Source of the DNA: a virus
Virus record (IMG/VR): IMGVR_UViG_3300044796_000658
Location: 1 to 64,000 of that record
Length of the DNA: 64,000 nt
Strand: one strand, 5' to 3'
Part shown: piece by piece, positions 1,855 through 61,521 of the stretch
How the letters are laid out: each line of letters starts with the position of its first letter
Position numbering within the stretch: the first letter of the stretch is position 1
The notes under the pieces: model-generated
What the model saw: the letters and a program-made list of their open reading frames with translations, nothing else
What the model was told of the DNA's origin: nothing
Databases searched by the model: none
Translations under genes and position numbers: made by a program

Positions 1855-1864
1855 CGATCAAATT

Positions 1865-1902: not shown

Positions 1903-1942
1903 ACATACTAGAACTAGAGATAGTTATAAAATAGTCGTTAAA

Positions 1943-1978
1943 ATAAAAAAAGCCATCCCGAAGGATGGCTTTTTTATT
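1943..1978. terminator. Bidirectional terminator after the capsid gene
   Basis: Hairpin AGCCATCC-cgaa-GGATGGCT with A7 before and T6 after. It lies just beyond the major capsid stop codon at 1991 and terminates the minus-strand head operon. Confidence 0.85.
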
Positions 1979-1990
1979 AAGTTTTAACAC

Positions 1991-15980: not shown

Positions 15981-16013
15981 AAGCCCCCGGTTTTTCCGGG
16001 GGTTTTCGTTTTT
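15981..16013 (+). terminator. Rho-independent terminator
   Basis: CCCCCGG-ttttt-CCGGGGG followed by TTTTCGTTTTT, directly after the small gene ending at 15962. Confidence 0.85.
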
Positions 16014-16686
16014 ACACAAGTTCGTGAAACCAAGTTCTCACAAACTTAAACTTTTTCACGGCCCATCCAGCTTTTGTCAAATCAAATTTTTCATCTGGCT
16101 TGCAAACGTATTCTTCATTTTGCTCGGCGTAACCCAACTGCCATACGTGATCTTCGGGCATTTCAATTACAACACTTTCCTTGAAATACTCCAATGCCAC
16201 TTTCATCGGCAAATTCTCAATCGCCTCACGCCACATTTGAGGCTTGGAAACAAAGAAAATTTGATTGAGTGTCCTGCGTTCATCAATAACGTAAATTGGA
16301 ACTTGGCTTTGCATTAAGTATAGAACCGCTTCGGACTTTCCTGAGTCTTCTTCTGCGATTGCTACACTGATGGGTTTAGAGCAATAGTTAATGGGCGTTG
16401 AATAATCAAAACCTGCCGTGTATTCCTTACTGACTGCCATATTGTAGATGGTTTCAGTAATATTTTGACCGCTGAATTTTGGGTGTGGAAATGCCAAATC
16501 TCCCTTAAAACAGACAGATACTTTTTTTGAAACATCTACGCCGTGCTCTACAAAACCAGAATGTGGCGGTTGATCATTTTCAGTTGCCGACTGTCTTAAT
16601 TTCGTCAGGATTTGTTCACTCACTGCTGGATTACGACTTTGACCGACACAACCAGAAAAACCCGCATTCAAACTCACATACTTCAT
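16012..16686 (-). CDS. Class II glutamine amidotransferase-like protein lacking the catalytic Cys
   Basis: 224 residues. From about residue 115 on (PISVAIAEEDSGKSEAVLYL, then VIDERRTLNQIFF) it aligns with the second half of the amidotransferase at 48581-49942 (AVAIAERGDD, then VIDMRKTLGQIFF), so the two are paralogues. The N-terminus is MKYVSLNAGFSGC, with no Cys at position 2, the residue that releases ammonia in this family, and the segment that would align with its Arg and Asn motifs is missing. It is probably not a glutaminase; a regulatory or partner role is possible. A longer frame starts at 16746, but a terminator lies inside it, so ATG 16686 is preferred. Confidence 0.6.
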   Translation of the reverse strand: MKYVSLNAGFSGCVGQSRNPAVSEQILTKLRQSATENDQPPHSGFVEHGVDVSKKVSVCFKGDLAFPHPKFSGQNITETIYNMAVSKEYTAGFDYSTPINYCSKPISVAIAEEDSGKSEAVLYLMQSQVPIYVIDERRTLNQIFFVSKPQMWREAIENLPMKVALEYFKESVVIEMPEDHVWQLGYAEQNEEYVCKPDEKFDLTKAGWAVKKFKFVRTWFHELV

Positions 16687-16703
16687 ACTGTGCACCTTAA
16701 AGC

Positions 16704-16728
16704 AAAAAAGAGGCCGTTTGGCCCCTTT
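16704..16728 (-). terminator. Terminator after the 191-residue gene
   Basis: On the minus strand AAAGGGGCC-aaac-GGCCTCTT is followed by T5-6. The stem has one mismatch. It separates the 191-residue gene from the amidotransferase-like gene and rules out the longer start at 16746. Confidence 0.7.
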
Positions 16729-16750
16729 ATTACTACGAGATGTCATTCAG

Positions 16751-19409: not shown

Positions 19410-20019
19410 ACAAGAGAACCAGAGTTACTACGAGCCGTTTTCCGATTTCGGGGAAGCGGCGTATGATTGTGAAATCCTCTGGACAAATCCTCACTCTATC
19501 GCTTTGGTTGTATTTACAGGCGGTGCTGACGTAAGTCCATCACTGTATGATGAAGAAGCAAATATCGGAACATTCACATCGCCACGGCGTGACATCTTCG
19601 AAATGATCGCCTTCACCAAAGCACGTTCGTATAGCCTGCGAATGGCGGGAATTTGCCGTGGGGCACAATTCTTAAATGTGATGGCAGGCGGGAAGATGAT
19701 CCAGCACGTTGACAGCCACGGCAACTACCACTCAATGACGACCATTGACGGCGAAGAAATGGAAGTCAGCAGCACTCACCACCAAATGATTATCCCACCA
19801 AAGCAAGATGCCCTTTTAGTGGGTTGGTCTTCGGTACGGCGCAGCGGTGTTTACTTGGGTGCCAAAGGCCCAACTGACGTTCCCGAAAAGGAAACCGAAG
19901 TTATCTACTTGCCAAAAATCAATGCGGTCGGGATGCAATATCACCCCGAAAGCATGAGCGTCCACAGCAAGGGTTTCCAATACGCTGCAACGCTAGTCAA
20001 GAAGTACCTGTATGATTAA
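19381..20019 (+). CDS. Class I glutamine amidotransferase, gamma-glutamyl hydrolase type (PuuD-like)
   Basis: 212 residues of the class I amidotransferase fold. The nucleophile Cys92 lies in GICRGAQFLNVMAGG. FTGGADVSPSLYDE at residues 45-58 is the PuuD-type glycine loop. The catalytic His-x-Glu pair is in YHPES near residue 190. Family members hydrolyse gamma-glutamyl bonds, for example in gamma-glutamyl-GABA. It overlaps the methyltransferase end, which shows co-transcription. Its presence in the same phage as a gamma-glutamylcyclotransferase-like protein and two ATP-grasp ligases is notable. The substrate is unknown. Confidence 0.8.
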   Translation: MPRKVLVVGEQENQSYYEPFSDFGEAAYDCEILWTNPHSIALVVFTGGADVSPSLYDEEANIGTFTSPRRDIFEMIAFTKARSYSLRMAGICRGAQFLNVMAGGKMIQHVDSHGNYHSMTTIDGEEMEVSSTHHQMIIPPKQDALLVGWSSVRRSGVYLGAKGPTDVPEKETEVIYLPKINAVGMQYHPESMSVHSKGFQYAATLVKKYLYD

Positions 20020-26600: not shown

Positions 26601-26712
26601 GGAAAGTTGGCTGAGAGGTTTAAGGCTCTCGACTGAAAATCGAGCGATCCAACGGGGTGTGTCTGATAACTTGCCCCCAGTAGATTCGTGGGTTCGAATC
26701 CCGCACTTTCCG
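26601..26712 (+). tRNA. Unusual class II-type tRNA with anticodon GAA
   Basis: The acceptor stem GGAAAGT/ACTTTCC pairs perfectly. The D-arm is GCT-GAGAGGTTTAA-GGC, with the 3-bp stem typical of Ser/Leu tRNAs. The anticodon arm is CTCGA-CTGAAAA-TCGAG, giving anticodon GAA (Phe) at 26635-26637. The T-arm is GTGGG-TTCGAAT-CCCGC. The variable region spans 43 bases (26645-26687) with inner GGGG/CCCC pairing, far longer than the usual 4-5 bases of tRNA-Phe and longer than Ser arms. The discriminator is G and no CCA is encoded. It could be a Ser-type tRNA with a shifted anticodon loop, a tRNA with an insertion, or a non-functional relic. Confidence 0.7.
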
Positions 26713-39113: not shown

Positions 39114-39296
39114 ATGTTAAACAATCCTTTCGCCGCCAAGGTCTATCGTGACATTGCGAAGTGTTATGCGGATGCAGGATATGTTAACGAGGCCACCGTT
39201 TTTTCGGAATTAGCCCAAGAGGTTTTTGATGAGTATCACAGCGCAAATCATTCTGATGCCGGGAGAGAACCTAACGAAAACGCTGGAAAGCCTTGA
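39114..39296 (+). CDS. Small helical protein overlapping the TPR gene
   Basis: 60 residues from ATG 39114; a TTG four codons earlier is an alternative. Helical hairpin (AAKVYRDIAKCYADAGYVNE) in the style of a single TPR unit. Its last 68 bases overlap the next gene in another frame, so the two are coupled. It may partner that TPR protein. Confidence 0.45.
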   Translation: MLNNPFAAKVYRDIAKCYADAGYVNEATVFSELAQEVFDEYHSANHSDAGREPNENAGKP

Positions 39297-40080
39297 CGGT
39301 CAAGTTTCTCACGCTTTGATCGGACTCTACAAAGATGCTCATGTGGAAAAGCTCCCAAATTGGTGCAAGACCAAACCTGTCAACTCTCATTTCAACGAAT
39401 GGCGCAACCAGAACCTCAAAGGCCAAACCCTTATCATCAATCCGGGGGAAGAACTGTCCGGCGATTTGGACATAGCAGAAGGAACGTACAGAGTATACGT
39501 CATGGATGAAATGTCAGTGTCAAAGGAAACTCGTATCGTTCAACCGGGCGACGGCAAATTCGTCAATCCAATTTACGAATGCTTTGATACGCCGCAAAGA
39601 AAAGAACTAGTTAACGTTTTTATCAAACCCATAGCAACGGGAAGTCATTTGGATTTAGTTGAAAAGTGGATCAAAGAAGAACCCGGTTCATGCGAAGCGG
39701 ATTACTACAAAGCATTTGAATTGCTTAGTAAGAACGACACCAAGGGCTTCATCAAACAGGGCGAGTACTTCTTGTTCCGTACGGGCGAGAAGAACCGATC
39801 TTCCATGATCATGATGAAATACTATTTGGGCGTGATGTTGTTGAGAGACGGACAACCCAACAAAGCAGCGAGCTACTTAATGGCGGGATTGGAAATGGCA
39901 CCAACAATGGCAGAGTTTTGGTGCGGATTAGGAGATTGCTTCCGCAAGACGGGTCAAGCAATGAAAGCGATGAGAATGTACAAGAATGCTATTATTATGG
40001 GCAAGAAAAGAGATACTCAAGATGACCTTCCAATCATCTTGAGTATGTATGAAGAATATCCTCAAGGGATGTTTTCATAA
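39229..40080 (+). CDS. TPR protein with a glycosyltransferase-like N-terminus
   Basis: 283 residues. The start SITAQIILMPGENLTKTLES, followed by HALIGLYKDA, resembles the first strand of family 2 glycosyltransferases but lacks a clear DxD catalytic site. Residues 190-270 contain two TPR units (YYLGVMLLRDGQPNKAASYL and FWCGLGDCFRKTGQAMKAMR). AGAGG precedes the ATG. It probably acts as an adaptor; an enzyme role is uncertain. Confidence 0.5.
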   Translation: MSITAQIILMPGENLTKTLESLDGQVSHALIGLYKDAHVEKLPNWCKTKPVNSHFNEWRNQNLKGQTLIINPGEELSGDLDIAEGTYRVYVMDEMSVSKETRIVQPGDGKFVNPIYECFDTPQRKELVNVFIKPIATGSHLDLVEKWIKEEPGSCEADYYKAFELLSKNDTKGFIKQGEYFLFRTGEKNRSSMIMMKYYLGVMLLRDGQPNKAASYLMAGLEMAPTMAEFWCGLGDCFRKTGQAMKAMRMYKNAIIMGKKRDTQDDLPIILSMYEEYPQGMFS

Positions 40081-40787
40081 ACTTGATTTTGAGAATATCT
40101 AATCACTTCCAAAGCTTGTTTTTCGTTACATCCATATAATCCCGAACCCCAAGCAGCATTGAGTTCAATCGCTGCCCAACCTCGATCCTTAATGACACCA
40201 ACATCAATCACAATAGCTTTGGGTGTTTCTACTGATTGAAGAACTGATTCGGCAAATGCCACAGCTTCTTGTTTTTCTGGAAATGACGAATACCAATCTT
40301 CATCTTTTTGAAGCAGTCCATGCCGAAGATAAACCGATAAAGTTAACACCTTGCCGTTCAAGGCGAAACACCGAAATTCCTTTTCCCATTCTACTGATTC
40401 TTGTACCAAAACTGATATGTTGCCTTCAATATACTCTGGCAACTTATCATATACCTTGGCAGCGAACGATTTGTCATTGGGCGGCTTAACAAAACACGGA
40501 AGATGTTTTTTGGCATCTTCAAATGTCGTTAATAAAATTTCACGTTTTCTGAATTCCTCTGGCAACCTAACCAACCAGTCGTCAGGCGGCTCATTGGCTA
40601 TTATACCTAATTGATCCGCAATCATTGGTGTAAACAGCGATTCAACGTAAAGTACAGGATCGAAAAGAGGCTTATCGGGCAATCGCCAATTCTGCAATCG
40701 CTCAACATTCCAGCCCAATTCATGAGCCGTACGCCAAAGGCGTTGACTGTCACTGGTGTAACGAGAAGATAAGATAAGTGTCGGCAT
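40062..40787 (-). CDS. ATP-grasp ligase, R2K clade (copy 1)
   Basis: 241 residues. ATP-grasp features are FVKPPNDKSFAAKVYD near residue 105, VSVLVQES, EFRCFALNGKVLTLSVY near 145 and the C-terminal metal-binding VIDVGVIKDRGWAAIELNAA. R2K-clade ATP-grasps are predicted amide-bond ligases found in phages. It is paralogous to the ligase at 41396. The longer frame to 40823 overlaps the cyclotransferase gene; ATG 40787 gives MPTLILSS, matching MPTLLIEE of the paralogue. The substrate is unknown. Confidence 0.72.
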   Translation of the reverse strand: MPTLILSSRYTSDSQRLWRTAHELGWNVERLQNWRLPDKPLFDPVLYVESLFTPMIADQLGIIANEPPDDWLVRLPEEFRKREILLTTFEDAKKHLPCFVKPPNDKSFAAKVYDKLPEYIEGNISVLVQESVEWEKEFRCFALNGKVLTLSVYLRHGLLQKDEDWYSSFPEKQEAVAFAESVLQSVETPKAIVIDVGVIKDRGWAAIELNAAWGSGLYGCNEKQALEVIRYSQNQVYENIP

Positions 40788-40788
40788 A

Positions 40789-41130
40789 TTAACCCCATAT
40801 TCCAAAGCATTCATAGAAACCATTTAAGTCTGATCGAAAGATGTAGGCGGTGATTTCTTCACCGTCATGGTCGCCTTTCATTTCTACAAACTCTCTGTCA
40901 TACAGGGCTTCGTGTAAATCAATTTCTTCAACATCTTCGTCGGGAACATCCCAAAGTTCGCCCTCTACCGAATAGCCATCCCCATCCGGAACAAGAGCCG
41001 GAAATTTGCCATTTTCAAACAGCCGGTAACACTCTTTTGTTTCGGCTTCGTTATCTACCAGTGTCGCATTTTCCAAATAATGGTTGTTGCGGTGCCCGGA
41101 CTTTAACGTACCATAAACGAAAAGAAGCAT
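40789..41130 (-). CDS. Gamma-glutamylcyclotransferase-like protein (GGCT/AIG2 fold)
   Basis: 113 residues. LLFVYGTLKSGHRNNHYLE at the start is the GGCT substrate-binding signature (YGTL), followed by YSVEGELWDVPDEDVEEID and LHEALYDREFVE with a candidate catalytic Glu. The family splits gamma-glutamyl amines into 5-oxoproline and free amine. It lies between two ATP-grasp genes with a 1-base gap to the next, so ligase and cyclotransferase probably make and unmake the same bond. Confidence 0.8.
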   Translation of the reverse strand: MLLFVYGTLKSGHRNNHYLENATLVDNEAETKECYRLFENGKFPALVPDGDGYSVEGELWDVPDEDVEEIDLHEALYDREFVEMKGDHDGEEITAYIFRSDLNGFYECFGIWG

Positions 41131-41132
41131 AA

Positions 41133-41399
41133 TTAGCCCTTTCTCTTGGGTTTGGGTTTACTCATTGCTTCAACTGCTGCTTGTAGGGCTTTTTTCGCTT
41201 TTTTCGCCTTTTTGGGCGGTGAAATCCAAGATCCATGTGCAGGGTCCCACGCATAAATATGACCACTTTGCAGATCAACAAAAGCCCACTTGTCCGGACA
41301 GTGCGTTTTGATCGGACCAAGCGGAAAAGTTTCTACGTATTCTTTAACGATTTCGCCTGTCAGCAATTTCGTTTCGTATTTCGGCGTCATTTTTGTCAT
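41133..41399 (-). CDS. Small basic protein of the ATP-grasp cluster
   Basis: 88 residues from ATG 41399, which overlaps the upstream ligase stop (ATGA); the longer frame to 41444 is not needed. A compact N-terminal part (DKWAFVDLQSGHIYAWDPAH) precedes a Lys/Ala-rich tail (KKAKKAKKAL). It could bind nucleic acid or serve as a ligase substrate. No family was recognised. Confidence 0.5.
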   Translation of the reverse strand: MTKMTPKYETKLLTGEIVKEYVETFPLGPIKTHCPDKWAFVDLQSGHIYAWDPAHGSWISPPKKAKKAKKALQAAVEAMSKPKPKRKG

Positions 41400-42154
41400 G
41401 GCAAAATCTCCAAAACGGCTTTCAAGATCGGAACAACATCGCACTTATAGATACCAGCTCCGTTGATCGGGCCGATTTCCATAAGTTTGAATCCATCATC
41501 CGTTAAGGCAACATCAGCTACATATAATGGATGCGGATGCCACTTGGACGCTTCAATAAGATCGGCAGCAGCTTTCGGAAAACCATTTTCAGTTAACAGT
41601 CCACCTTCGCTGTATAGACTTCCCGTTATGACTTTGCCATTGGCCACAATCATACGGAATTCTTTTTTGATGACTTCAGGACGAGAAACAACACACAAAG
41701 TATCGTCTTTGGTGTTATACGTTCTGGCGTTCTTTTCCCATACCTTGTAATAATCCTTTTCAATCACCGCACCCGTAAACGTCTTATCGTTTGAATCGGG
41801 ACGAATGAACATCCTATTATTAACACCGAACATCTCATACAATTCATCCTTCAACCTCACCACTTCGGCGAATGGATAGAAGGCATACCGCTGTTGTACA
41901 AGGTCTTTGCCCCAATAAGGGTAATAACCTTGGCAGGAAAGTTTGTGCCAGTCACACCACAGCGTCGGGCAATCAGGACGAGTCTGTAACTGTTTGATGA
42001 AATTGAGAGAACCGAAGAAAGTAGCCGGTTTGGGAAGGTCTTTTGTTTTGGCGTTAATGATCTGAACGTCCATGCCTAATTCTTGCGCAGCGTACCCCAT
42101 CCGGTTGACTTCCCGGTGATCGTAAACATGTTCTTCTATGAGGAGCGTTGGCAT
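41396..42154 (-). CDS. ATP-grasp ligase, R2K clade (copy 2)
   Basis: 252 residues. MFIRPDSNDKTFTGAVIEKD near residue 113 and EFRMIVANGKVITGSLYSEG near 170 are the R2K ATP-grasp blocks; VADVALTDDGFKLMEIGPIN near 220 holds the metal-binding residues. It is expected to form an amide bond between a carboxylate and an amine using ATP. It shares order and operon with the other ATP-grasp and the GGCT-like gene. The two copies are diverged and may have different substrates. Confidence 0.75.
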   Translation of the reverse strand: MPTLLIEEHVYDHREVNRMGYAAQELGMDVQIINAKTKDLPKPATFFGSLNFIKQLQTRPDCPTLWCDWHKLSCQGYYPYWGKDLVQQRYAFYPFAEVVRLKDELYEMFGVNNRMFIRPDSNDKTFTGAVIEKDYYKVWEKNARTYNTKDDTLCVVSRPEVIKKEFRMIVANGKVITGSLYSEGGLLTENGFPKAAADLIEASKWHPHPLYVADVALTDDGFKLMEIGPINGAGIYKCDVVPILKAVLEILP

Positions 42155-42156
42155 GT

Positions 42157-42408
42157 CTATCTTTTATCAATTTGTTCATTATCGAGCTTGTCTTTAATGG
42201 ACTGCTCATAGCGTGCGCCGAGATTCATTGCCGCACAGAAAGCATCCGCATCTTCTTGCCAAGCGAACGTTAACTCTGCGTTGTGCTTCATCATCAATAC
42301 GCTCTTCTTTTTGGTGTTCATGATACGGAAGTACTTCATCATCATACCCGGCCCCGCACCATCGGATCGAACGTAAGAAGATTCCATAACAACGTAAGCG
42401 TTACTCAT
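42157..42408 (-). CDS. Small unrecognised protein of the ATP-grasp cluster
   Basis: 83 residues, mixed beta and helix (VMESSYVRSDGAGPGMMMKY), with a MAN-type C-terminal helix. It ends 2 bases before the ligase ATG, so it is coupled to it. Function unknown. Confidence 0.5.
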   Translation of the reverse strand: MSNAYVVMESSYVRSDGAGPGMMMKYFRIMNTKKKSVLMMKHNAELTFAWQEDADAFCAAMNLGARYEQSIKDKLDNEQIDKR

Positions 42409-42450: not shown

Positions 42451-43029
42451 TTAAAATAAAGAGTTAAGATCGTTGACAATTGCTGTAACCTGATCTTGGA
42501 AACGGGCAATCTGTACAATCTTACGACCACTTGGCAGCTTGTTTAACTCTTTTTCTAACTCATGGATTGTCGTATTGATGATCTTCCAATTCATTTGATT
42601 ATCACGACTTTGCTGCATGACATCTTCGGCTGAACCAGTTGGCGAGACGGCAAAAATCGCATCAATGTCATTAACGACAACAGTGATCTTATCCCTGAAT
42701 CGGGATGCTGCCATCATTCTCTTGCCCTTTGGAACTTCTTTCAAACGATCATTCAAATTGAAAACGTTACAATTAATAACCTTCCAATCGTTTCTGACTG
42801 CCTTGCGTTCCGCTTCTTCCTCTTCGGGCGTAATGACTTCTTTGGTTGGGAAATAAGACTGCAAACGATCCTTGTACTTTAACAAGGATCGCAGAAAGGT
42901 CATATTACATCCACAACCGGGATCTTTCAAAAATGATTTGATTTGCTCTGCGGACTCTGGAAACAGGTCTTGGAAACGCTTGTCCCAAAGTGCCTGTTTC
43001 AGATCCATTATCGTTACTTTATTCTTCAT
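42451..43029 (-). CDS. Unrecognised protein with a duplicated module
   Basis: 192 residues. Two copies of a unit of about 45 residues are visible: near 80-125 (WKVINCNVFNLNDRLKEVPK, then FRDKITVVVNDIDAIF) and near 148-192 (WKIINTTIHELEKELNKLPS, then FQDQVTAIVNDLNSLF). The N-terminal 65 residues contain CGCN. ATG 43029 is preferred to 43041; it overlaps the upstream membrane gene. Function unknown. Confidence 0.5.
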   Translation of the reverse strand: MKNKVTIMDLKQALWDKRFQDLFPESAEQIKSFLKDPGCGCNMTFLRSLLKYKDRLQSYFPTKEVITPEEEEAERKAVRNDWKVINCNVFNLNDRLKEVPKGKRMMAASRFRDKITVVVNDIDAIFAVSPTGSAEDVMQQSRDNQMNWKIINTTIHELEKELNKLPSGRKIVQIARFQDQVTAIVNDLNSLF

Positions 43030-43408
43030 CCGAATCCTCAAAAGTCGTCAATGAGACAATGTACACGTAGATAGCAGCGAATACCGGGGACAATAGGCTA
43101 ATCATAAAGCCCCATACTAATGCCCAAAGTTCAAACCGACCGAACTCAGGCCCGAAGCCAGCGAACCGAGCAATAGCGAAAACGGCCAAGCCGCTCCAGA
43201 ATCCGTTGCACTGGTGACAGTTCATCATTTCTACGACTTTATCAAAGAACCATTCCAAGCACGAATAGTTTCCCCATCGCTTTTGTGGTGCTCCGTTTTC
43301 GTTTTCTTTAAAAATTAACCAATACTTGAACGAACTCGCAATTGAGCTGTCGGCAAGAAGGTGGCTCAAACCGATACCACCTAAAATCATAAGTACAAAA
43401 TTCAGCAT
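43019..43408 (-). CDS. Integral membrane protein (DUF1360-like)
   Basis: 129 residues with an N-terminal hydrophobic segment (FVLMILGGIGLSHLL), a CHQCNGFWSGL motif near residues 64-74, and two further hydrophobic stretches near 75-90 and 92-120. The C-x-x-C-x-G-x-W signature after the first span is like DUF1360 membrane proteins. It lies 3 bases after the preceding gene. It probably sits in the host inner membrane. Confidence 0.55.
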   Translation of the reverse strand: MLNFVLMILGGIGLSHLLADSSIASSFKYWLIFKENENGAPQKRWGNYSCLEWFFDKVVEMMNCHQCNGFWSGLAVFAIARFAGFGPEFGRFELWALVWGFMISLLSPVFAAIYVYIVSLTTFEDSDEE

Positions 43409-45259: not shown

Positions 45260-45937
45260 ATGACCAACATTAGCATCAACAAAGCCGCTGCCATTCTTAA
45301 CCTTCATGTTGATACGTTAAGAGATTTGGACAGACGTGGTATTTTGATAGCGAATAAAACGACGGGTGGACATCGTCGCTATAACTCATTAGAGGTTTTT
45401 AAATTGGCGAACAAAAAAAATGGTAATTTGACCAAATTCGAACGAACAATGTTGGCAACCAATTATTGGATACTGGCGTTGGGAAATTCGAAAGAAAAAG
45501 CTGAGTGGGAACGTAAAGCCGAAGCAGTTCTTTATGGTTATGAAGCAGAATATTTTCTTGATATGGATGATGACGTTTTATCATCAGATGATTGCCATGA
45601 AGTATCTGCTATTATGCAAATGTATTGGATTGGACAACGAGAATATCAAAAATTGGATGATAAGTCTGGTATTACCGAATACCATATGACCAATTTAGGT
45701 TTTTCGGATGACAATCGTGCTGGATATGCACGATACCGAAAAAATGAAGATGGCCAAGAGTTATTTCAAGGCTTGGTTTCCGAATGTAAGGATTTCACCA
45801 AAATGGTTCCCAATGGTCTTGAGATGGCCAGATACAGAAAAATGCTTTTGAGATGGAATTCAATCCAAAAAAATAAGAACATTGGTAAATTCGTTGATAA
45901 AGAAGATTTGATTGAAGTATTTGTCAATACCCACTAA
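45260..45937 (+). CDS. MerR-type HTH fused to a YfbU-like domain
   Basis: 225 residues. Residues 1-55 are a MerR/excisionase-type helix-turn-helix: ISINKAAAILNLHVDTLRDL, then RRGILIANKTTGGHRRY. Residues 58-205 match the YfbU family in layout: FERTMLATNYWILALGN, GYEAEYFLDMDDDVLSSDDC, VSAIMQMYWIG and ARYRKMLLRWNS. YfbU is a bacterial protein of unclear function, linked to cell death in E. coli. I know of no such fusion. The 18-base repeats just upstream suggest autoregulation. The host stress pathway is a possible target. Confidence 0.72.
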   Translation: MTNISINKAAAILNLHVDTLRDLDRRGILIANKTTGGHRRYNSLEVFKLANKKNGNLTKFERTMLATNYWILALGNSKEKAEWERKAEAVLYGYEAEYFLDMDDDVLSSDDCHEVSAIMQMYWIGQREYQKLDDKSGITEYHMTNLGFSDDNRAGYARYRKNEDGQELFQGLVSECKDFTKMVPNGLEMARYRKMLLRWNSIQKNKNIGKFVDKEDLIEVFVNTH

Positions 45938-45938
45938 T

Positions 45939-46817
45939 ATGAACCATGTAACATGGAGTCGTAAAATTAAAAAAAGAGACAAGATGTGCCAAACATGTGG
46001 CACATCTTGTCGCCTTGTCGCTCATCATATTAAATCATGGGTTCAATATCCAGAATTTAGATATGATTTAACTAATGGCAAAACTCTATGCGAACAATGT
46101 CACAAAGACATAAAAATCAAACAAAACCCCGCACAAAAACAAAGCAACCAAGATTATTCACAATTCGAACCAACTGGAGAAAAATACCATTATTGGAATG
46201 TGTTAAATAGCCAAGAACGGCGAGGTAAAAAATATTTCATTCTTTGTAAATGCAATTGTGGAACTATCAAATTCGTAGAAAAATGTGGACTCAAAAAAGG
46301 CAAAAGTAAAAGTTGTGGATGTTTTAAAAAAGAAATATTAATCCAAAATTTTTCTGGTAAAAACAATCCACAATATACTCATGGTCAATCGTTAAGAAAA
46401 TCTTGGACAAAAGAATATCGTTGTTGGGTTGATATTAAAACTAGATGTTATAATGACAACCGTAGAGGATATGAGAATTATGGCGGCAGAGGAATTAAAA
46501 TGTGTGAAACATGGTTGAATGATTTTGAACATTTTTTTGCCGATATGGGTAAAGCACCATCACCCAAACACGAGTTAGATAGAATTGATGTTAACGGCAA
46601 TTATGAAAAAAACAATTGTCGATGGATAACACATAGTCAAAATTGTTTAAATACCACCAAAAATAAATTTATAACATTGAATAACAAAACTCAAACATAC
46701 GTTGAGTGGGAAAGAGAACTCCAATTGACACGTGGTACAATAAGTCGTCGTGTTAAAAAAGGATATTCAATTGAACGGTGTTTGTCACCTGTGAAGGAGA
46801 GCAAAAATGAAGGATAG
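45939..46817 (+). CDS. HNH homing endonuclease
   Basis: 292 residues from ATG 45939, just after the regulator stop (TAATATG). An N-terminal HNH unit has CQTCG, AHHIKSW and LCEQCH. A zinc module follows (CKCNCG, then CGCF). The C-terminal region EYRCWVDIKTRCYNDN, then YENYGGRGIKMCETWLNDF and LDRIDVNGNY, is a DNA-binding repeat typical of free-standing phage homing endonucleases. The end has an HTH-like IERCL stretch. It overlaps the next gene by 11 bases. It lies between two unrelated genes, as a mobile insertion does. Confidence 0.85.
   Translation: MNHVTWSRKIKKRDKMCQTCGTSCRLVAHHIKSWVQYPEFRYDLTNGKTLCEQCHKDIKIKQNPAQKQSNQDYSQFEPTGEKYHYWNVLNSQERRGKKYFILCKCNCGTIKFVEKCGLKKGKSKSCGCFKKEILIQNFSGKNNPQYTHGQSLRKSWTKEYRCWVDIKTRCYNDNRRGYENYGGRGIKMCETWLNDFEHFFADMGKAPSPKHELDRIDVNGNYEKNNCRWITHSQNCLNTTKNKFITLNNKTQTYVEWERELQLTRGTISRRVKKGYSIERCLSPVKESKNEG
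45978..46011 (+). promoter_or_regulatory. 14-bp hairpin inside the start of the HNH gene
   Basis: GACAAGATGTGCCA-aacatg-TGGCACATCTTGTC is a perfect stem within codons 14-24, where the CQTC zinc motif is encoded. It could slow translation or transcription of the endonuclease. Some symmetry may simply come from Cys codons. Confidence 0.45.
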
Positions 46818-48397: not shown

Positions 48398-48624
48398 CAC
48401 TGTTCGCTAATCGTCAGAGTTACTGTCGCTGAATGGGCCTCACTGCGAATCAGTGAGACCTTATCCATGATTCGCCGGAACTCTTCGGCGGTCATGTTTT
48501 TCGCTTGGATGGAGTTGTAAACCCCGGTGCGAAAACTTTCAAGCGACTTCACCATTTTGTCGTAAATGGCGTCAAACTGTTTAAGCTGTTCCACTTTGTA
48601 CCCCCAAGGAACGGATGACTTCAA
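48397..48624 (-). CDS. Small protein related to the amidotransferase C-terminus
   Basis: 75 residues, helical. MTAEEFRRIMDKVSLIRSEA aligns with LSNRELSQIIDQFEVIRSLG, the C-terminal end of the upstream amidotransferase, so this gene may be a duplicated copy of that domain. The 5' end overlaps the amidotransferase by 44 bases; an internal GTG at 48594 is an alternative start. It may compete with or cap the enzyme's C-terminal helix. Confidence 0.5.
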   Translation of the reverse strand: MKSSVPWGYKVEQLKQFDAIYDKMVKSLESFRTGVYNSIQAKNMTAEEFRRIMDKVSLIRSEAHSATVTLTISEQ

Positions 48625-49942
48625 ATTGGTCGATGATCTGACTCAACTCTCTGTTGCTCAGATGATTGCGAGCGGCTTCATCATGAACGCTCTTCTTGAG
48701 AACAGTTAAGTCCCCCAAGATTCCATCCACATTTTTGCGGAACAACTCAAAGTCGATGTCGCCCTCAAAGGGCAGGTCTTGTGCTGTAACAACGACGCCG
48801 TTTTTCAACTCTTCTTCGCCGGGTTCCCGACTCACCGCATCGCTTCTTGGAGGGAGGGTATGCCCGTTGTTGACGCTATTTCTAGCGGGGTTCCCCACCT
48901 TTTTTTTTTCGCCCGCTGGCACAGTAGGAGTAGTCGGCTCTTCCTTCAAATCAGGCGGTACGGATTCGTCCGATTTGAGACGACACAAGACCTTCATCGG
49001 GGGCAGAGACACTTCAACCGGCTTCTTGAAGTTAAGTTTGTCATCCTCGTCTTCGGCTTGCCAGTGATCGATGTGCTTCGTCTTCGTGATCTTGAACTTA
49101 CGAATCTGCCAAGGCTTGTTTGGGCCTTCTTCGTTTTCGTCCGTAGACAGGAGCCAGACTTGGTAGGGAGGGAACTCGATGATAACGTGATCGGCTGTGA
49201 CGTAATCCTTAGCCGAAGGCGTATCTTCGATAACCGACCGCCAGATTTCGGCAGTGGAACAGAAGAAGATTTGGCCGAGCGTTTTCCGCATGTCGATCAC
49301 CCACAGAGGGCGTTCTTCATCACGGAACAACCAGAGGTAGCGGGAATTGTCGTCCCCACGCTCTGCGATTGCCACGGCCATTGCGCCATAGTTAACACGG
49401 CTGAAGATTTCCTTCATACCGAGCAACCGTTCGGCCAAAAACGTCGACATGGTAGGGAACTCTTCTTTGAGTTGAGTTTCCCGTTCCTTGGCGATGACTC
49501 TTGACGATTCGAACATGCGGAGCAAGATTTCGCTGTCACAATCGCTTTCAATGGAATACCGACCCTTCAAGGCCGAGAATTCCGGAATCTTCCCGTTGTG
49601 TACCATTGCGACACGACGGTCGTCTGATACGTGCGGGTGATTGTTCTTGTTAATTCTTTCCGGCCCGCCACCGACCGAAGTCGCCCGACAGTGACCGATG
49701 AACAAATCGACGCCGCCTTGAATGAAAGCGGGAACGTCTTTTTGCCAAATGTCTTGTTTAATGTACTCGGAACTCTTTTTGGGTTCCTTGTCGTACATGA
49801 TCGAACCATCCGCAACCGAACAACCGTAAAAACCGGATGCGTCAGTGCCACGAGGTTCAGTTTTAACGAACAACTTGTTGAGCAAGTCGTAGGTTACTTT
49901 GGGGTCTTTGCTCACCCCAATAAAGCCGAAGATTCCGCACAA
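48581..49942 (-). CDS. Class II glutamine amidotransferase
   Basis: 453 residues. MCGIFGFIGV places the catalytic Cys at position 2. TEPRGTDASGFYG near residue 28, GHCRATSVGGG near 83 and MVHNGKI near 113 are the glutamine-binding motifs of GlmS/PurF-type enzymes. Residues 1-270 are this domain. Residues 280-400 are a polar, Pro-rich linker. The last 60 residues are a helical end duplicated in the next gene. It releases ammonia from glutamine for an unknown acceptor; no synthetase domain is fused. A degenerate paralogue lies at 16012. Confidence 0.85.
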   Translation of the reverse strand: MCGIFGFIGVSKDPKVTYDLLNKLFVKTEPRGTDASGFYGCSVADGSIMYDKEPKKSSEYIKQDIWQKDVPAFIQGGVDLFIGHCRATSVGGGPERINKNNHPHVSDDRRVAMVHNGKIPEFSALKGRYSIESDCDSEILLRMFESSRVIAKERETQLKEEFPTMSTFLAERLLGMKEIFSRVNYGAMAVAIAERGDDNSRYLWLFRDEERPLWVIDMRKTLGQIFFCSTAEIWRSVIEDTPSAKDYVTADHVIIEFPPYQVWLLSTDENEEGPNKPWQIRKFKITKTKHIDHWQAEDEDDKLNFKKPVEVSLPPMKVLCRLKSDESVPPDLKEEPTTPTVPAGEKKKVGNPARNSVNNGHTLPPRSDAVSREPGEEELKNGVVVTAQDLPFEGDIDFELFRKNVDGILGDLTVLKKSVHDEAARNHLSNRELSQIIDQFEVIRSLGVQSGTA

Positions 49943-52373: not shown

Positions 52374-53994
52374 TCTTGATCCCCTTGCGTTCCATTGCGA
52401 TTTCAATTAACTTGTGAAACAAAGGCGAAGAATTACCCAGACGACTCTTGAACTCTGGATGCGCCTGAACTCCCACAAAGAATGGATGCACCTTTGTATC
52501 TAATTCCATCACTTCAATCAATCCCGTTTGAGGATTGGTACCAGACACCTTAAACCCATGTTCAGTAAATTGCCCTGTGTACGCAGCATTAACTTCATAA
52601 CGGTGCCGGTGTCTTTCGGAAATTAACTTCTTTCCGTACGCCTTATATGCCAACGAGTCCTTAACCAACTCACAATCATAAGCACCCAATCTCAACGTTC
52701 CGGACTTGGTCTTAACACTTTGTTGCCCTTCAATGTAATGTACAACGTGCGAACCCTTCGTTGCGCTGAATTCTTGACTCGTAGCATCCTCAATGCCAAT
52801 ATGACGAGCAAATTCAATCACCGCACATTGCAACCCCAAGCAGATGCCAAGGAAAGGTATCTTACGTTCCCGTACATACTCAATCGCCCTAATCTTGCCC
52901 TCTACTCCACGATTGTCAAAGCCGCCCGGTACAATCACACAGTCAATTCCCTCAAAGAACTTCTGCATACCTCTGAGAGTATGACATTCTTCCAATCGCT
53001 CAGCCTCAATCCAACGAATATTCGCTTTGGCATTGTTACTCACCGCTGCATGATAAATGGCTTCCTTCAAACTGAGGTACGCATCCGTCATACTGGTGTA
53101 CTTGCCAATGATGCCTATATTCAAATGTGGCATGTCTTTGGCGTTAACGTACTTCTCTACCAATTCCCGATATTTATGGATTCTAACCCCCGTACGACGC
53201 AAATGGAACCTATCTGCGATCAGATCATCCACATGTCTCGTATAGAACGTAATCGGAACTTCGTACACGCTGCTAGTGTCTGGAGCATCGAATACCGCTT
53301 CCTTGGAAATCCCTGTTAACTCAGAAATCTTGGCAAGCAACTTTTCGGGGCATGGCCGATCAGTACGACAAATCAAAACATCAGGAAACAAACCAAATTG
53401 CTGTAATTCCGTAATGCTCTTCTGTAACGGCTTAGTTTTGAATTCCCCAATCGTGTTAACCCACAAAATCGGGGCAACATGGCAAAGCATGACGTTATTT
53501 GGGCCGTGCTTATGTCGGAATTGCTGAATGGCCATCATGAAGTGGCCGCTTTCCAAATCGCCTACAGTACCACCGATTTCAACGATCACGATGTCATGGT
53601 CTTTACCGAAGTCTTCTAGGATTGCGTGAATTTTATTGGTGACGTGGGGATGGATTTGAATTGTTTGACCGAGATACTTGCCTTCTTTCTCTTCATCAAA
53701 AACCTGTGAGAGAAGGTGGCCGTTAGTACAGATGTTCTTTTGTGAGACCTCGATACCAGTGATGCGTTCGTAAGTTCCTAAATCCAAGTCGGTTTCGGAA
53801 CCATCGTCGCACACAAGGCATTCACCATGCTGGTACGGTGAAAGTGTGGATGCCGATCTGTTGAGATAGGGGTCGAATTTGATGATATTAATTTTTTCCC
53901 CCCGCATCTTCAAAAGCAAACCGATAGAAGCCGCCGACACACCCTTACCACAACCACTGATTACGCCGCCTGTCACAAAAATATATTTGCACAT
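52339..53994 (-). CDS. pyrG: CTP synthase
   Basis: 551 residues, the full bacterial length. The synthase domain (residues 1-265) starts KYIFVTGGVISGCGKGVSAAS, with a P-loop variant (GCGKG for the usual SLGKG). It continues with SPYQHGECLVCDDGSETDLD and YERITG. The amidotransferase domain has the nucleophile in GICLGLQCAV near residue 385 and HPEF near 518. It makes CTP from UTP, ATP and glutamine. With PyrF and the ribonucleotide reductase, this gives the phage a pyrimidine route. Phage-borne PyrG is rare. Confidence 0.93.
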   Translation of the reverse strand: MCKYIFVTGGVISGCGKGVSAASIGLLLKMRGEKINIIKFDPYLNRSASTLSPYQHGECLVCDDGSETDLDLGTYERITGIEVSQKNICTNGHLLSQVFDEEKEGKYLGQTIQIHPHVTNKIHAILEDFGKDHDIVIVEIGGTVGDLESGHFMMAIQQFRHKHGPNNVMLCHVAPILWVNTIGEFKTKPLQKSITELQQFGLFPDVLICRTDRPCPEKLLAKISELTGISKEAVFDAPDTSSVYEVPITFYTRHVDDLIADRFHLRRTGVRIHKYRELVEKYVNAKDMPHLNIGIIGKYTSMTDAYLSLKEAIYHAAVSNNAKANIRWIEAERLEECHTLRGMQKFFEGIDCVIVPGGFDNRGVEGKIRAIEYVRERKIPFLGICLGLQCAVIEFARHIGIEDATSQEFSATKGSHVVHYIEGQQSVKTKSGTLRLGAYDCELVKDSLAYKAYGKKLISERHRHRYEVNAAYTGQFTEHGFKVSGTNPQTGLIEVMELDTKVHPFFVGVQAHPEFKSRLGNSSPLFHKLIEIAMERKGIKNEPVVEEEVPR

Positions 53995-54142
53995 TATTCT
54001 GTTGCCTCTTCCTTCTGTAATGGTTGGGCACTCCCAAAGCCATATGTTTAACCTATATCTACAGTTAGTGTATTACACCAAGAATGATATTACCATTTTT
54101 GCCTATATAATCAACCCCATCACCCTTCAACGAGGTGTCCCA

Positions 54143-54553
54143 TTGCCATTCAACGTCATTTGTGAAAAATTAGCAAAAAAAGTAACTACGTGGGCTGGTT
54201 CCACCAATGCCACTATACTTGCTTTTGCTCTTATTATCAGTTGGACAATCGGGGGACTCTTTGAGGGCTTTTCCGATTCTTACCAAATGATAATTAATAC
54301 CGGTACCACCATCATCACTTTCCTGATGGTATTCCTCATCCAGCGTACCCAAAACAAAGACTCAACCGCAATACAACTCAAACTCAATGAACTCATCGCT
54401 TCCGTGGATGGTTCCAGCAACCGTTTACTCAATATCGAAGACCTATCCGAGTCTGATATCGAAATACTGCGCAAGAGGTACCGTAGTCTGGCTCTAAGAA
54501 CCAAATCCGACGATAACTTTACGAGTCGTCACACAATCGAAGAGATTGAATGA
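54143..54553 (+). CDS. Low-affinity iron permease family membrane protein (Fet4-like)
   Basis: 136 residues from TTG 54143, preceded by GAGGTG; this start gives the usual family N-terminus, while the longer frame from 53879 overlaps pyrG. Two hydrophobic spans lie near residues 21-38 (ATILAFALIISWTIGG) and 48-66, with the signature GFSDSYQMIINTGTTIITFL, then MVFLIQRTQNKDSTAIQLKL. A polar C-terminal tail follows. Family members are small inner-membrane proteins linked to divalent iron uptake. It may help iron supply for the ribonucleotide and iron enzymes, or alter the membrane. It would be a rare auxiliary metabolic gene. Confidence 0.78.
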   Translation: MPFNVICEKLAKKVTTWAGSTNATILAFALIISWTIGGLFEGFSDSYQMIINTGTTIITFLMVFLIQRTQNKDSTAIQLKLNELIASVDGSSNRLLNIEDLSESDIEILRKRYRSLALRTKSDDNFTSRHTIEEIE

Positions 54554-57923: not shown

Positions 57924-58103
57924 TTATTCTTTAAATTGTTGAGCAAAAGAGTTCAAATCAATGAAATGTTCCTTTAAAATGCCCGGAAATGATTCTTCTG
58001 CTTGTTTTAGAATTTCGGCATCAGACGGAGTAGTAAGACTTTCATGATCGGCAGCTTGGAACCAATACAAAATACGATTTGCATCTTCTTTAGTTAAATT
58101 CAT
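57924..58103 (-). CDS. 59-residue protein between the array and the reductase
   Basis: Starts with the ATGA overlap with the last array gene. The sequence MNLTKEDANRILYWFQAADH leads into an acidic helix. It lacks the C-terminal tag of the six array genes. A 54-base gap separates it from the reductase start. Function unknown. Confidence 0.55.
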   Translation of the reverse strand: MNLTKEDANRILYWFQAADHESLTTPSDAEILKQAEESFPGILKEHFIDLNSFAQQFKE

Positions 58104-58321
58104 TCTGACTCTTCTTTCAATATTTCACATTTGATTTTTGGTTTTTTTATTCTAATAAGCGGTGTTGTTAACAATATCGAATCCATTGACGGATAGGCTC
58201 TTCGTATCAGAGGCATATGCAAAGTCGGATACGTTAAAGTCGGATACGTTCTACGATTTTCCGGAATCTCTTTGAGTGGAATTTCCTTAAATCCTTTTAA
58301 TTTTTCAATACGTTCTGGCAT
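58100..58321 (-). CDS. Tagged array protein 6 (capsid-like peptide)
   Basis: 73 residues. The body carries RRTYPTL and TYPTL, then MPLIRRAYPSM, which resemble the major capsid segment IPLVRRIYPQL (residues 66-76). The end is KKPKIKCEILKEESE, the shared tag. It starts with a TAATG overlap with the previous member and ends in ATGA with the next gene. No known domain is present. I infer a peptide that imitates or competes with a capsid contact, but the function is unknown. Confidence 0.65.
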   Translation of the reverse strand: MPERIEKLKGFKEIPLKEIPENRRTYPTLTYPTLHMPLIRRAYPSMDSILLTTPLIRIKKPKIKCEILKEESE

Positions 58322-58644
58322 TATTCTTCCCCCAATATTTCACATTGGATTTTAGACTTTTTCAACACGTAAGGCTTAGTACACTCATAGGCATAACTGT
58401 ATTCATCCTGCCATCGTTCATTGCCGTTAAAAGTTGTACCAGAACCAACACCACGGGAACTGATACCAACACGAGGCATGGGAACGGCCAAAATAGATGG
58501 ATTTTGAGCCATGACTTCAAGTTTCAATTTCTGCAATTGCTTAATTTTCAATTCTGCTATTATTTTTTCTTGTTCTGTCTTTGTGAGCTCTTTGAATTCT
58601 TTCAAAAAATTCTCTACAATTCTAATTTCACTTTCAGTTGGCAT
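58321..58644 (-). CDS. Tagged array protein 5 (portal/protease-like chimera)
   Basis: 107 residues. After a helical start (VENFLKEFKELTKTEQEK), residues 38-59 (LQKLKLEVMAQNP, then AVPMPR) match the portal C-terminal segment (LQELKLQVMSQNP, then GVAMPQ) at 14 of 22 positions by eye. The next residues, RVGISSRGVGSGTTFNG, match the serine motif of the prohead protease at 12 of 17. The end KKSKIQCEILGEE is the shared tag. The gene joins pieces of two head proteins in one short chain. It is coupled to its neighbours by TAATG overlaps. Confidence 0.7.
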   Translation of the reverse strand: MPTESEIRIVENFLKEFKELTKTEQEKIIAELKIKQLQKLKLEVMAQNPSILAVPMPRVGISSRGVGSGTTFNGNERWQDEYSYAYECTKPYVLKKSKIQCEILGEE

Positions 58645-58955
58645 TATTCAATCTCCTTTAATATTTCGCATTTTATTTTTGATTTTTTGATACGAATGTA
58701 ACCATAGTTAGTTTGCATGATAGGATCTGCTGAATGTGAGACAGTTAATGGCTCGCCCCACGAATTTTGAAGAATAATCTCCCCACATGGATTTGCGCCA
58801 ACATAATTAACAGAATGACTCCAAACATTACGATCTGCAAACTGAGACGGAATATTAACTAGCGGTATACCCGATGACATACCATATTCAACTTCATCCC
58901 ATTGTGATGACAATGATGATGAAATTGATGTTGGCCACGTTGCATAAACTGGCAT
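58644..58955 (-). CDS. Tagged array protein 4 (reductase-like peptide)
   Basis: 103 residues from ATG 58955, which overlaps the previous stop (TAATG); the frame upstream to 58979 is not needed. The body has QWDEVEYG, SQFADRN and GANPCGEIILQ. These resemble EWDEVEN, EQFADRY and FNPCVEIALY of the class II ribonucleotide reductase encoded 0.8 kb downstream; NPCGEI is the catalytic-cysteine motif of many reductases. The end KKSKIKCEILKEIE is the shared tag. It cannot be an enzyme at this size. Competition with the reductase or mimicry of it is possible. Confidence 0.65.
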   Translation of the reverse strand: MPVYATWPTSISSSLSSQWDEVEYGMSSGIPLVNIPSQFADRNVWSHSVNYVGANPCGEIILQNSWGEPLTVSHSADPIMQTNYGYIRIKKSKIKCEILKEIE

Positions 58956-59158
58956 TATTCTTCCCCTAATATTTCGCAAGTAATTTTTGGTTTTGGAAAA
59001 TATGATCCAAAAACTTGTTGGTGGTAATCTGCTGGCAGTGCGTAATGATGCCTATAATTTTTGTTGAAAATTTGTGATTGTGTGATTCCACAATGTCTGT
59101 ATAAAGCAGCCATCACCTCTCGCTTCAAAGCCTCCAAAGTTTCTTCTTCAGTTTTCAT
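58955..59158 (-). CDS. Tagged array protein 3
   Basis: 67 residues. A helical start (EEETLEALKREVMAALYRHC) is followed by an aromatic and His-rich stretch (NYRHHYALPADYHQQVFGSY). The end KPKITCEILGEE is the shared tag. I found no clear source for its body in this window; it may copy a phage protein encoded elsewhere. The ATG lies 11 bases inside the upstream gene. Confidence 0.65.
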   Translation of the reverse strand: MKTEEETLEALKREVMAALYRHCGITQSQIFNKNYRHHYALPADYHQQVFGSYFPKPKITCEILGEE

Positions 59159-59354
59159 CTGGCAGCTCCTTTAATATTTCGCATATGATCTTGGATTTCT
59201 TTTTCGATTTCTCCGAGCTCCAGCTATGATCAAACGGATCGTGCCAAACGTAATCGTCAGAGTAAGAGTTGGCGTACGAATACGAATATAATGATGTTGA
59301 TGCCGCTGGCACATCAACCGTGATGTTCATATCTTCAATAACAACTTGTGGCAT
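59148..59354 (-). CDS. Tagged array protein 2
   Basis: 68 residues. A short beta start (QVVIEDMNITVDVPA) leads into a Ser/Tyr-rich centre (SLYSYSYANSYSDDYVWHD) and a basic run (KSKKKSK). The end KIICEILKELPDEN is the shared tag plus five residues. No source protein is evident in this window. TAATG couples it to the previous member. Confidence 0.65.
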   Translation of the reverse strand: MPQVVIEDMNITVDVPAASTSLYSYSYANSYSDDYVWHDPFDHSWSSEKSKKKSKIICEILKELPDEN

Positions 59355-59578
59355 TACTCTTCCCCCAATATTTCACAGGTGATTTTAGACTTGATTTTAG
59401 GCTTAACAATTTGTTTGCCGTATCTTGTCAAGGTAGGTGTGGTGGCGATACCGTGGTAATACAATGGATTGACACGGGTACGGTAACTTTCACGGGCTGC
59501 TGTTTCGCTCGTATAATAATCATAATACGAAGACAAGTTGATTGGCGTATTGCCTGTTTTTACTGCTTCTATTTTCAT
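59354..59578 (-). CDS. Tagged array protein 1 (capsid-like peptide)
   Basis: 74 residues. The stretch RVNPLYYHGIATTPTLTRYG, followed by KQIV, resembles the capsid C-terminal region with TPT and TRYGKKLL. A Tyr-rich start (SSYYDYYTSETAARESYRTR) precedes it. The end KSKITCEILGEE is the shared tag. The ATG overlaps the stop of the gp46-like gene (ATGA), so the whole array is translated after that gene. Confidence 0.65.
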   Translation of the reverse strand: MKIEAVKTGNTPINLSSYYDYYTSETAARESYRTRVNPLYYHGIATTPTLTRYGKQIVKPKIKSKITCEILGEE

Positions 59579-61521
59579 TTGATCCTACTTATTCCGTTTT
59601 CTTTAATGACTGTGATAGTATCGTAGTTACTTAACATTTCCAACAATTCAGGATCGTGTGTAGTCACCAAGACTTGACGATCTCTTGCCAATTCGCAAAT
59701 CATGGCAAAAACGGATTGAATGCCCGGTCTGTCCAGATTTGTACCAACCTCATCCAGACTGACAAGACTCGGACAGGAACCAGCCGTTAAAGCGGTTACG
59801 TTTGCGAATCCCTGCGAAATACCCAAGCTGATGCGTTGATGTTCACCGCCAGACATTGCGCTGTGTACGAAAGGATCACCGTCTGGAGGATTCCTCTCAA
59901 TCTTCTCAACCAATTCCGTATTGAACTTAAGAGTGATCTTATTATCAATCAAGAATTGGAGCCAGAAGTTAATCTTGGCATTGAGCAATGGAACGATTTC
60001 ATCAATGATAAACGACCGAATGCCCTTGTCGCCGAAACCCATAATCCAAAAATCGTAATATGGGATTTGAGAAGTATGCTCATCAACTTCCTTACGCTGC
60101 GACATCATCTTTTGACGATTGAAATCTAATTCTGCTTCCAAATTGGCCAAGATCGGCCCATAAGGATCGCCTGCCTCGTACTCAGTTACTTTCTGCTCTA
60201 ATTGTTCTGACAGTGTATCAATCTTTTGTTCGATAATCAATGCCGCTGCATTAGCATTCTTCTGAAAAGCCGCTGTCAACTGTGAACGCTTGGATTCCAA
60301 CTCACGAATATTCCTCACGACACCCAATTCACGAATTTTGGCATTTTCAATCGCTTCAACAATAGCCGCAATCGCCCTATCGTACTTGCCCATCTTGACA
60401 GCCGCCGCATCCCAATCGGTCTGATTCTTCTTGATCTCTTCCCTGATTTCAGCAATCTGATCCTCGTTATGGGAAATCACGTGCTGGAAATTTTCCTTGT
60501 TCACAACACCGAAACAAACCTTACATTTAGTACCGTTACTCGTCGTCAAAGAATGGGTTTGTTGCTTCAATTCCTCAATGTCTTTTTCACTCTTCTTGAT
60601 TGCGTAAGCGAGTTCTTTAGTTCCTAGCATCAACGTTTGACGATCTTCACGTACTTGACTGTGTTTCTTTTCCGCTTCTCGAATCGCTTCCTGTATCGCT
60701 TGACGAGATTTCGTTTTTTCTTGAATCGACTCTTCAACCAAAGAAATGTTCTCGTAGCTACTCACCGAATCTGGCTGAATTTGGGCCATCTCCTCTTTTG
60801 CCCTAACAATCTGTAGCTTCAATCGCTCAATGCTGTTCATCTGGCCCATTCGCCAATCTTCACGCTGCTTTGAGATGTTGATAATTTGCCGTTCAGCAGT
60901 TTGAACATTAACAGAACTTTTTTCATAAACTGCTTTGATGACTTCCAGCTTTTGAAGAATTACAGTTTTCCGCTTCTTCGCCGACTCACAAAACTTATTG
61001 TACTTGTCTAGAGACAACAAACTCTCTGCGATCTGCCTTTTTTCAGAAGGGTTGCACATCAAGAAAGGCTTAGCGTTATGCTGGCCGAAACAAACAATGT
61101 TAATGAAGGCATTGTAGTTCAGTTTGATGATCTTGTTGATTTCATCTTGGGTTGCAGGAATACCACCGAGCTTCTGTAAATCGCCATCCTTGTACAGAGT
61201 CAAATCGTTCTTTTCTCTTCTGCGATTGATCACATAAGCGTGACCGTCCAATTCAAAGCCAATTTCAACTTCCAACTTGGACTTCATCTTAATGTTGATG
61301 ACTTCGTATTGGTTGAGGCTCTTGATCAGCTTGCCATAAAAGGCGTAAACAATGGCTTCTATGATGGTACTCTTACCAGCACCATTACTCGCATCTTTGC
61401 CAATATCAAGATTTTCACCTTTGATACAAACGATGTTGCCGTACTTTGTGAAATCGATGAAAAGAGGATTCTCGTTTCCGAACGATAAAAAGTTTGATGC
61501 TTTGATGTAATTGATTTTCAT
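59575..61521 (-). CDS. 46: Recombination nuclease ATPase subunit (T4 gp46/SbcC-like)
   Basis: 648 residues. With the gp47-like subunit it resects DNA ends for recombination-dependent replication. The Walker A motif is in DASNGAGKSTIIEAIVYAFYG near residues 45-65 (given in part). A long coiled coil has a zinc hook (CKVC near 314). The signature motif HSAMSGGEHQRISLGI is near 560 and Walker B (LVSLDEVGTNLD) follows. ATG 61521 overlaps the gp47 stop (ATGA) and is preferred to 61530. The array of six small genes follows without a gap. Confidence 0.9.
   Translation of the reverse strand: MKINYIKASNFLSFGNENPLFIDFTKYGNIVCIKGENLDIGKDASNGAGKSTIIEAIVYAFYGKLIKSLNQYEVINIKMKSKLEVEIGFELDGHAYVINRRREKNDLTLYKDGDLQKLGGIPATQDEINKIIKLNYNAFINIVCFGQHNAKPFLMCNPSEKRQIAESLLSLDKYNKFCESAKKRKTVILQKLEVIKAVYEKSSVNVQTAERQIINISKQREDWRMGQMNSIERLKLQIVRAKEEMAQIQPDSVSSYENISLVEESIQEKTKSRQAIQEAIREAEKKHSQVREDRQTLMLGTKELAYAIKKSEKDIEELKQQTHSLTTSNGTKCKVCFGVVNKENFQHVISHNEDQIAEIREEIKKNQTDWDAAAVKMGKYDRAIAAIVEAIENAKIRELGVVRNIRELESKRSQLTAAFQKNANAAALIIEQKIDTLSEQLEQKVTEYEAGDPYGPILANLEAELDFNRQKMMSQRKEVDEHTSQIPYYDFWIMGFGDKGIRSFIIDEIVPLLNAKINFWLQFLIDNKITLKFNTELVEKIERNPPDGDPFVHSAMSGGEHQRISLGISQGFANVTALTAGSCPSLVSLDEVGTNLDRPGIQSVFAMICELARDRQVLVTTHDPELLEMLSNYDTITVIKENGISRIK

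Follow-up and report, generated by a model that had tools for sequence, protein, structure and literature searches.

Two R2K-clade ATP-grasp proteins and a gamma-glutamylcyclotransferase in an accessory cassette of a T4-like phage

R2K-clade ATP-grasp enzymes span bacteria, jumbo phages, giant viruses, and all eukaryotes (CDC123), with a ligase activity that is only predicted in the literature found. The modification of peptides or proteins by these enzymes is a published prediction (PMC4431377, PMC7824862), as is the peptide/amide ligase activity of the clade as a whole (PMC4431377), and a literature search for tested R2K_2 or R2K_3 enzymes returned nothing past such predictions and no prokaryotic R2K protein with tested activity. 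The best-studied R2K protein, CDC123, has been described as an ATPase and an assembly chaperone for eIF2 (PMC12860950). Elsewhere among the ligases, RimK extends the C-terminus of RpsF with glutamates, and the protease RimB keeps RimK in check (PMC10092738). The gamma-glutamylcyclotransferase (GGCT) fold is characterized by a YGSL motif and an acid/base Glu, and its GGACT members act on gamma-glutamylamines (PMC7022552). In phages, ATP-grasp and GGCT genes recur together in a cassette of the PaP3/LUZ24/phiEco32 type, which is present in PaP3 and in many viral contigs.

The window analyzed here is the opening 64 kb of an uncultivated virus record that is 174.7 kb long. Its T4-like head and tail genes encode a major capsid protein, a portal, an S77 prohead protease, and a sheath, as well as gp19-like tubes, a gp15-like stabiliser, and a baseplate hub. 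Two R2K proteins (referred to as ligases A and B), a GGCT, and a small Lys-rich protein are encoded side by side, together with the following neighbors.

39226..40080, plus strand: conserved flanking phage gene (TPR), which shares the 19 nt at its 3' end with ligase B
40062..40787, minus strand: ligase B, bacterial-type R2K_2 ATP-grasp protein of 241 aa (PF18299, 115 bits; bacterial homologues; tree; AF2)
40789..41130, minus strand: GGACT/AIG2-type GGCT of 113 aa (PF06094, E=2e-20; YtfP 1xhs, YkqA 2qik)
41133..41399, minus strand: small Lys-rich orphan protein of 88 aa, whose start overlaps the ligase A stop (ATGA)
41396..42154, minus strand: ligase A, phage-type R2K-clade ATP-grasp protein of 252 aa (Pfam R2K_2/R2K_3, PHROG 7313, alignments, AF2, Foldseek)
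42157..42408, minus strand: orphan 83-aa gene (g83), 2 nt upstream of ligase A
42451..43041, minus strand: conserved flanking phage gene g196, which borders the insertion on its upstream side and is syntenic in five relatives (L291-L295)

The four cassette genes, from ligase A to ligase B, all lie on the minus strand and form a tightly spaced unit of 2.1 kb. Ligase A and the small gene overlap by 4 nt (ATGA), while 2 nt separate the small gene from the GGCT and 1 nt separates the GGCT from ligase B, which implies co-translation of all four products. These junctions, together with Pfam scores above the cut-offs (about 26 bits for both R2K_2 and R2K_3), bear out the earlier note on this DNA, which had placed two R2K ATP-grasp ligases and a GGCT in one operon. 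In a profile search of the whole 174.7-kb record, ligases A and B were the only R2K genes and the cassette GGCT the only GGACT gene. For the small gene, ATG 41399 (88 aa) is the most likely start, rather than GTG 41444; it was placed downstream of the start of the longest open reading frame because of the ATGA junction. The start of ligase B, most likely ATG 40787 (241 aa), was moved in the same direction because its bacterial homologues, which begin there too, align from Met13 of the longer frame. The orphan gene g83 found no family match in profile searches and no match in related phages; it probably belongs to the insertion.

Ligase B is the better preserved member of the pair. It scores 115.2 bits against R2K_2 and 80.2 bits against R2K_3, shares 50-56% identity with its closest bacterial R2K_2 relatives (stand-alone proteins of Planctomycetota, Lysobacter, Tahibacter, Massilia, and Herpetosiphon), and nests inside the bacterial R2K_2 clade in a quick tree with several long branches. 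Its predicted active site comprises the RAGNYA-region Lys in strand 2 (K101), a second Lys in the following loop (K106), the ExR motif (E137xR139), D195, and the ExN metal/ATP motif (E208xN210); all seven residues (K101, K106, E137, R139, D195, E208, and N210) are invariant among 30 aligned homologues. The earlier note had asked whether ATP-binding residues are missing, and in ligase B all of them are present, whereas ligase A carries Arg in place of the first Lys and Gly in place of the ExN Asn, both of which are also seen in some phage relatives.

Ligase A scores 52.9 bits against R2K_2 and 47.7 bits against R2K_3, and its motif residues read FIRP...K124, E165xR167, D214, and E226-I-G. While K124, E165xR167, D214, and E226 are retained, the first conserved Lys is replaced by Arg118, as it is by Arg in all eight aligned sequences (alignment A8), and the position of the ExN Asn (ExGD in R2K.3) is occupied by Gly228 within E226-I-G-P; Gly is found there in two ligase A relatives as well (EVG or EIG; L100 and L102). 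With about 30% identity to phage R2K proteins, ligase A is placed among them in the tree, its exact place being unsure because the tree stems from a quick search and has several long branches. By profile score, ligase A appears to be a divergent phage R2K protein of doubtful activity: it may bind metal in an altered way and still be active, or it may be no ligase at all. A search of viral contigs with either ligase alone as query found no close viral relative.

Profile-profile comparison revealed distant homology between the two ligases along their whole length. Since ligase A groups with phage R2K proteins and ligase B with bacterial R2K_2 proteins, the pair is not a tandem duplication, which the tree rules out, and the two ligases have separate origins. 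For both AlphaFold models (pLDDT 85 for ligase A and 93 for ligase B), Foldseek placed LysX/ArgX, RimK, and D-Ala-D-Ala ligases (Ddl) on top at 9-16% identity and TM 0.4-0.7. This supports an ATP-grasp amide-ligase fold for both proteins, with the reservation that TM-scores of about 0.4-0.7 indicate the superfamily and not the substrate.

The ranking also bears on the question of whether the R2K proteins might form no amide and instead serve host or phage proteins as ATPases or ATP-driven assembly chaperones. Such a role would follow CDC123, the founder of the R2K clade, which is reported to be an ATPase promoting eIF2 assembly (PMC12860950), and would agree with the weakened metal-binding residues of ligase A. 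The complete set of ATP-grasp ligase residues in ligase B does not fit this picture, CDC123 is absent among the best 50 Foldseek matches listed, where LysX/ArgX, RimK, and Ddl rank first, and a chaperone gives no reason for a GGCT in the operon. We therefore consider this role unlikely.

The GGCT belongs to PF06094 (GGACT, E=2e-20), with YtfP (1xhs) and YkqA (2qik) as structural relatives. Its active site is intact, consisting of Y6, G7, T8, and L9 (in YGTLK) and Glu74, and YG[TS]L together with this Glu is kept in all 67 viral GGCT relatives compared. The enzyme is thus predicted to cleave gamma-glutamyl compounds, which ones being left unfixed by sequence in a fold that accommodates several substrates; gamma-Glu-epsilon-Lys, gamma-glutamyl amino acids, and glutathione are candidates. 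The small protein has a pI of 9.8 and 16 Lys in its 88 residues, 10 of them within the last 30; sequence and profile searches found no relative and recognized no carrier-protein family. Because GGACT enzymes act on gamma-glutamylamines, the Lys-rich protein could, speculatively, be an acceptor or carrier. A self-contained reversible tagging system, in which the ligases would put gamma-glutamyl or aminoacyl groups on Lys side chains, either in this protein or in one of the host, and the GGCT would remove them as 5-oxoproline, is improbable in our estimation. If true, it would be the first reversible system of R2K enzymes, and the clade would gain a biochemical function.

A ligase step followed by the removal of a gamma-glutamyl cap is found in butirosin biosynthesis (BtrJ/BtrG). 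By analogy, the two ligases might build a short peptide or a gamma-glutamyl-protected metabolite, from which the GGCT would remove the cap. Two different ligases in one operon do fit successive ligations, as has been argued for linked peptide ligases (PMC4431377). Since the cassette holds no other biosynthetic or export gene and no recognized carrier protein, and its small orphan protein has no relative, a small-molecule pathway of this kind seems very unlikely.

The genomic context of the cassette was compared with that of related phages, which were collected through a capsid search that yielded 240 related stretches (73-91% identity among the 80 kept). In five relatives (L291-L295), the gene order is sheath, tube, g38245, sigma, and TPR, followed by g196, g129 (not detected in L294), g130, and the hub. 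The cassette and g83 sit exactly between the TPR gene and g196. This site is empty in L291, L293, and L295, where the gap measures about 40-50 bp. In L294 the gap is about 340 bp long; that of L292 measures about 1.9 kb and holds an M14 zinc carboxypeptidase gene (L292 6714-8150). The cassette is a discrete accessory insertion, and the TPR-g196 interval is a site for accessory cargo. No mobile-element scars were found at the cassette borders. The TPR protein of the window has a shorter C-terminus than in the relatives examined, and its homologue in one relative has a GT2-like N-terminus. Across 35 related records (one of 343 kb, many of them fragments), neither R2K nor GGACT genes were detected, with controls silent in one search; the same R2K search does detect R2K in the present record and in ten others. 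The empty-site comparison marks the cassette as optional cargo, which favors a role in conflict or niche adaptation over one in core replication. A second accessory insertion lies nearby, where MerR/YfbU-like and HNH genes (45260-46817, plus strand) separate the hub from g46807; the two are adjacent in the five relatives, without these genes.

According to the earlier note, R2K ligases often lie next to GGCT-like proteins. This pairing was absent from all phage and bacterial neighborhoods searched, and a conserved R2K-GGCT linkage is therefore rejected: no R2K gene was found in 80 viral GGCT neighborhoods or in GGCT-bearing phage records, no GGCT adjoined the R2K loci L003-L010 and L099-L105, no GGACT gene was present in 15 R2K-bearing phage records, and 80 bacterial R2K_2 genes had no GGCT at a distance of up to 4 kb. 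What the statement does fit is the cassette of the PaP3/LUZ24 type, in which the ATP-grasp does not belong to R2K; the earlier note probably merged the two, whereas its prediction of peptide or protein modification by R2K enzymes agrees with published inference (PMC4431377, PMC7824862). Membership of the present cassette in the PaP3/LUZ24 type was rejected as well, given that the ATP-grasp of that type is not R2K and that the PaP3 amidoligases are missing here. Homologues of the PaP3 COOH-NH2 ligase and Amidoligase_2 were found neither in the window nor in the rest of the record, and a PF12224 profile search gave no match, though its control stayed silent. Among stand-alone viral GGCT genes, those of the jumbo-phage contigs L012, L021, and L025 (430-595 kb) have a nearby ClpX-like gene in common, and metallophosphatase or sigma-like genes lie close to some of them.

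These results raise the question of whether the cassette enzymes are merely neighbors by chance, that is, separately acquired genes that came to lie at one insertion site and in one operon but have unconnected roles, the R2K proteins working on host proteins and the GGCT on free gamma-glutamyl compounds such as glutathione. The different origins of the two ligases in the tree, the unrelated carboxypeptidase cargo at the same site in L292, and the lack of R2K-GGCT co-occurrence in other phages and near the 80 bacterial R2K_2 genes agree with this explanation. The ATGA, 2-nt, and 1-nt junctions, which imply co-translation of four products, do not, and independent phages pair GGCT with amide ligases. 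The latter pairing, seen in PaP3 and its viral relatives, means that the two chemistries occur together again, with a different set of ligases. Because the R2K-GGCT linkage is not conserved where searched, joint function is argued from a single cassette. Joint action is thus favored by co-translation and disfavored by the unconserved pairing, and on balance we lean tentatively toward it, at slightly under an even chance, with chance neighborhood as a sizeable though lesser possibility.

In the joint explanation, the cassette, lodged in a T4-like myovirus between two of its conserved genes, would be a horizontally assembled, moron-like cargo that combines ATP-dependent amide ligation with the removal of gamma-glutamyl groups by the GGCT. 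Ligase B, and possibly ligase A, would activate a carboxylate, presumably that of glutamate, with ATP to form an acyl-phosphate, which would then be joined to an amine. The resulting amino-acid or gamma-glutamyl amide would sit on a small molecule or on a protein of the host or the phage. From such amines the GGCT would strip the gamma-glutamyl groups, which would cyclise intramolecularly to 5-oxoproline; the group could in this way be reversed, trimmed, or used as temporary protection. A cassette of a GGCT and two R2K enzymes offers a compact hypothesis on the chemistry, namely gamma-glutamyl amides, in a clean genetic unit.

Further genes had been proposed as partners of the cassette, two of which lie elsewhere in the window as follows.

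19381-20019, plus strand: PuuD-like protein (Peptidase_C26)
48581-49942, minus strand: class II amidotransferase (GAT-II; GATase_6; first residues (M)CGIFGF)

Both genes exist as the earlier note had described, but their tie to the cassette is unsupported: three relatives carry GAT-II without any R2K or GGACT gene, for which reason it was rejected as a partner, and nothing was found that links the PuuD-like gene to the cassette. A paralogue of part of GAT-II, without the N-terminal Cys glutaminase region, is located at 16012-16746 (minus strand). The proposal that Glu-terminated array tags at 58-59 kb serve as ligase substrates likewise found no support, as the terminal residues vary (GEE three times, EIE, ELPDEN, and EESE) and the terminal codons double as part of the ribosome-binding site for the gene that follows. 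The array itself (58100-59600, minus strand) consists of six tandem small ORFs (58.1-59.5 kb) with differing bodies and a common C-terminal KIxCEIL motif, which shows synonymous codon changes and runs into the ribosome-binding site of the next gene.

Other elements of the window include a 112-nt tRNA (26601-26712, plus strand) with a very long variable arm, a class II (serine-like) body, and discriminator G. Its anticodon loop CUGAAAA gives GAA (Phe), and ARAGORN detects it only with introns allowed; it may be a tRNA of Ser type that decodes Phe codons, or its model may be wrong. An Rfam STnc430 match (49.5 bits, cut-off 47) falls at the end of a tail-fibre-like gene (1850-1982, plus strand), and a low-affinity iron permease domain (PF04120, E=6e-44) is encoded in this phage genome at 53879-54553 (plus strand).

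With regard to known systems, both ligases are members, at the Pfam level, of the R2K enzymes of bacteria and jumbo phages (R2K_2/R2K_3; Burroughs 2015, Iyer 2021), and two or three R2K genes each are ordinary in jumbo phages; unlike the cassette, the other R2K phages and bacteria examined have no GGACT in the phage record or nearby. Ligase B shares every active-site residue with the bacterial stand-alone R2K_2 proteins (Planctomycetota, Lysobacter, Tahibacter, Massilia, Herpetosiphon, and Streptomyces), whose genes, in contrast to ligase B, lack conserved neighbors and a GGCT. The cassette GGCT shares fold family and catalytic motifs with the GGACT/AIG2/YtfP cyclotransferases but differs in sitting in an R2K operon. 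The PaP3/LUZ24/phiEco32 cassette, composed of a COOH-NH2 ligase, Amidoligase_2, GAT-II, ATP-grasp, and GGCT, is likewise a phage operon in which a GGCT adjoins an ATP-grasp ligase; the ATP-grasp of the PaP3/LUZ24 type, however, has no R2K match by Pfam, unlike ligases A and B, and GAT-II is located inside that cassette but outside the present one. RimK and LysX/ArgX are the closest solved folds to both ligases but, at about 11-16% identity, not of the same family. The ligase-plus-remover logic resembles that of RimK/RimB, with the difference that the remover here would be a cyclotransferase.
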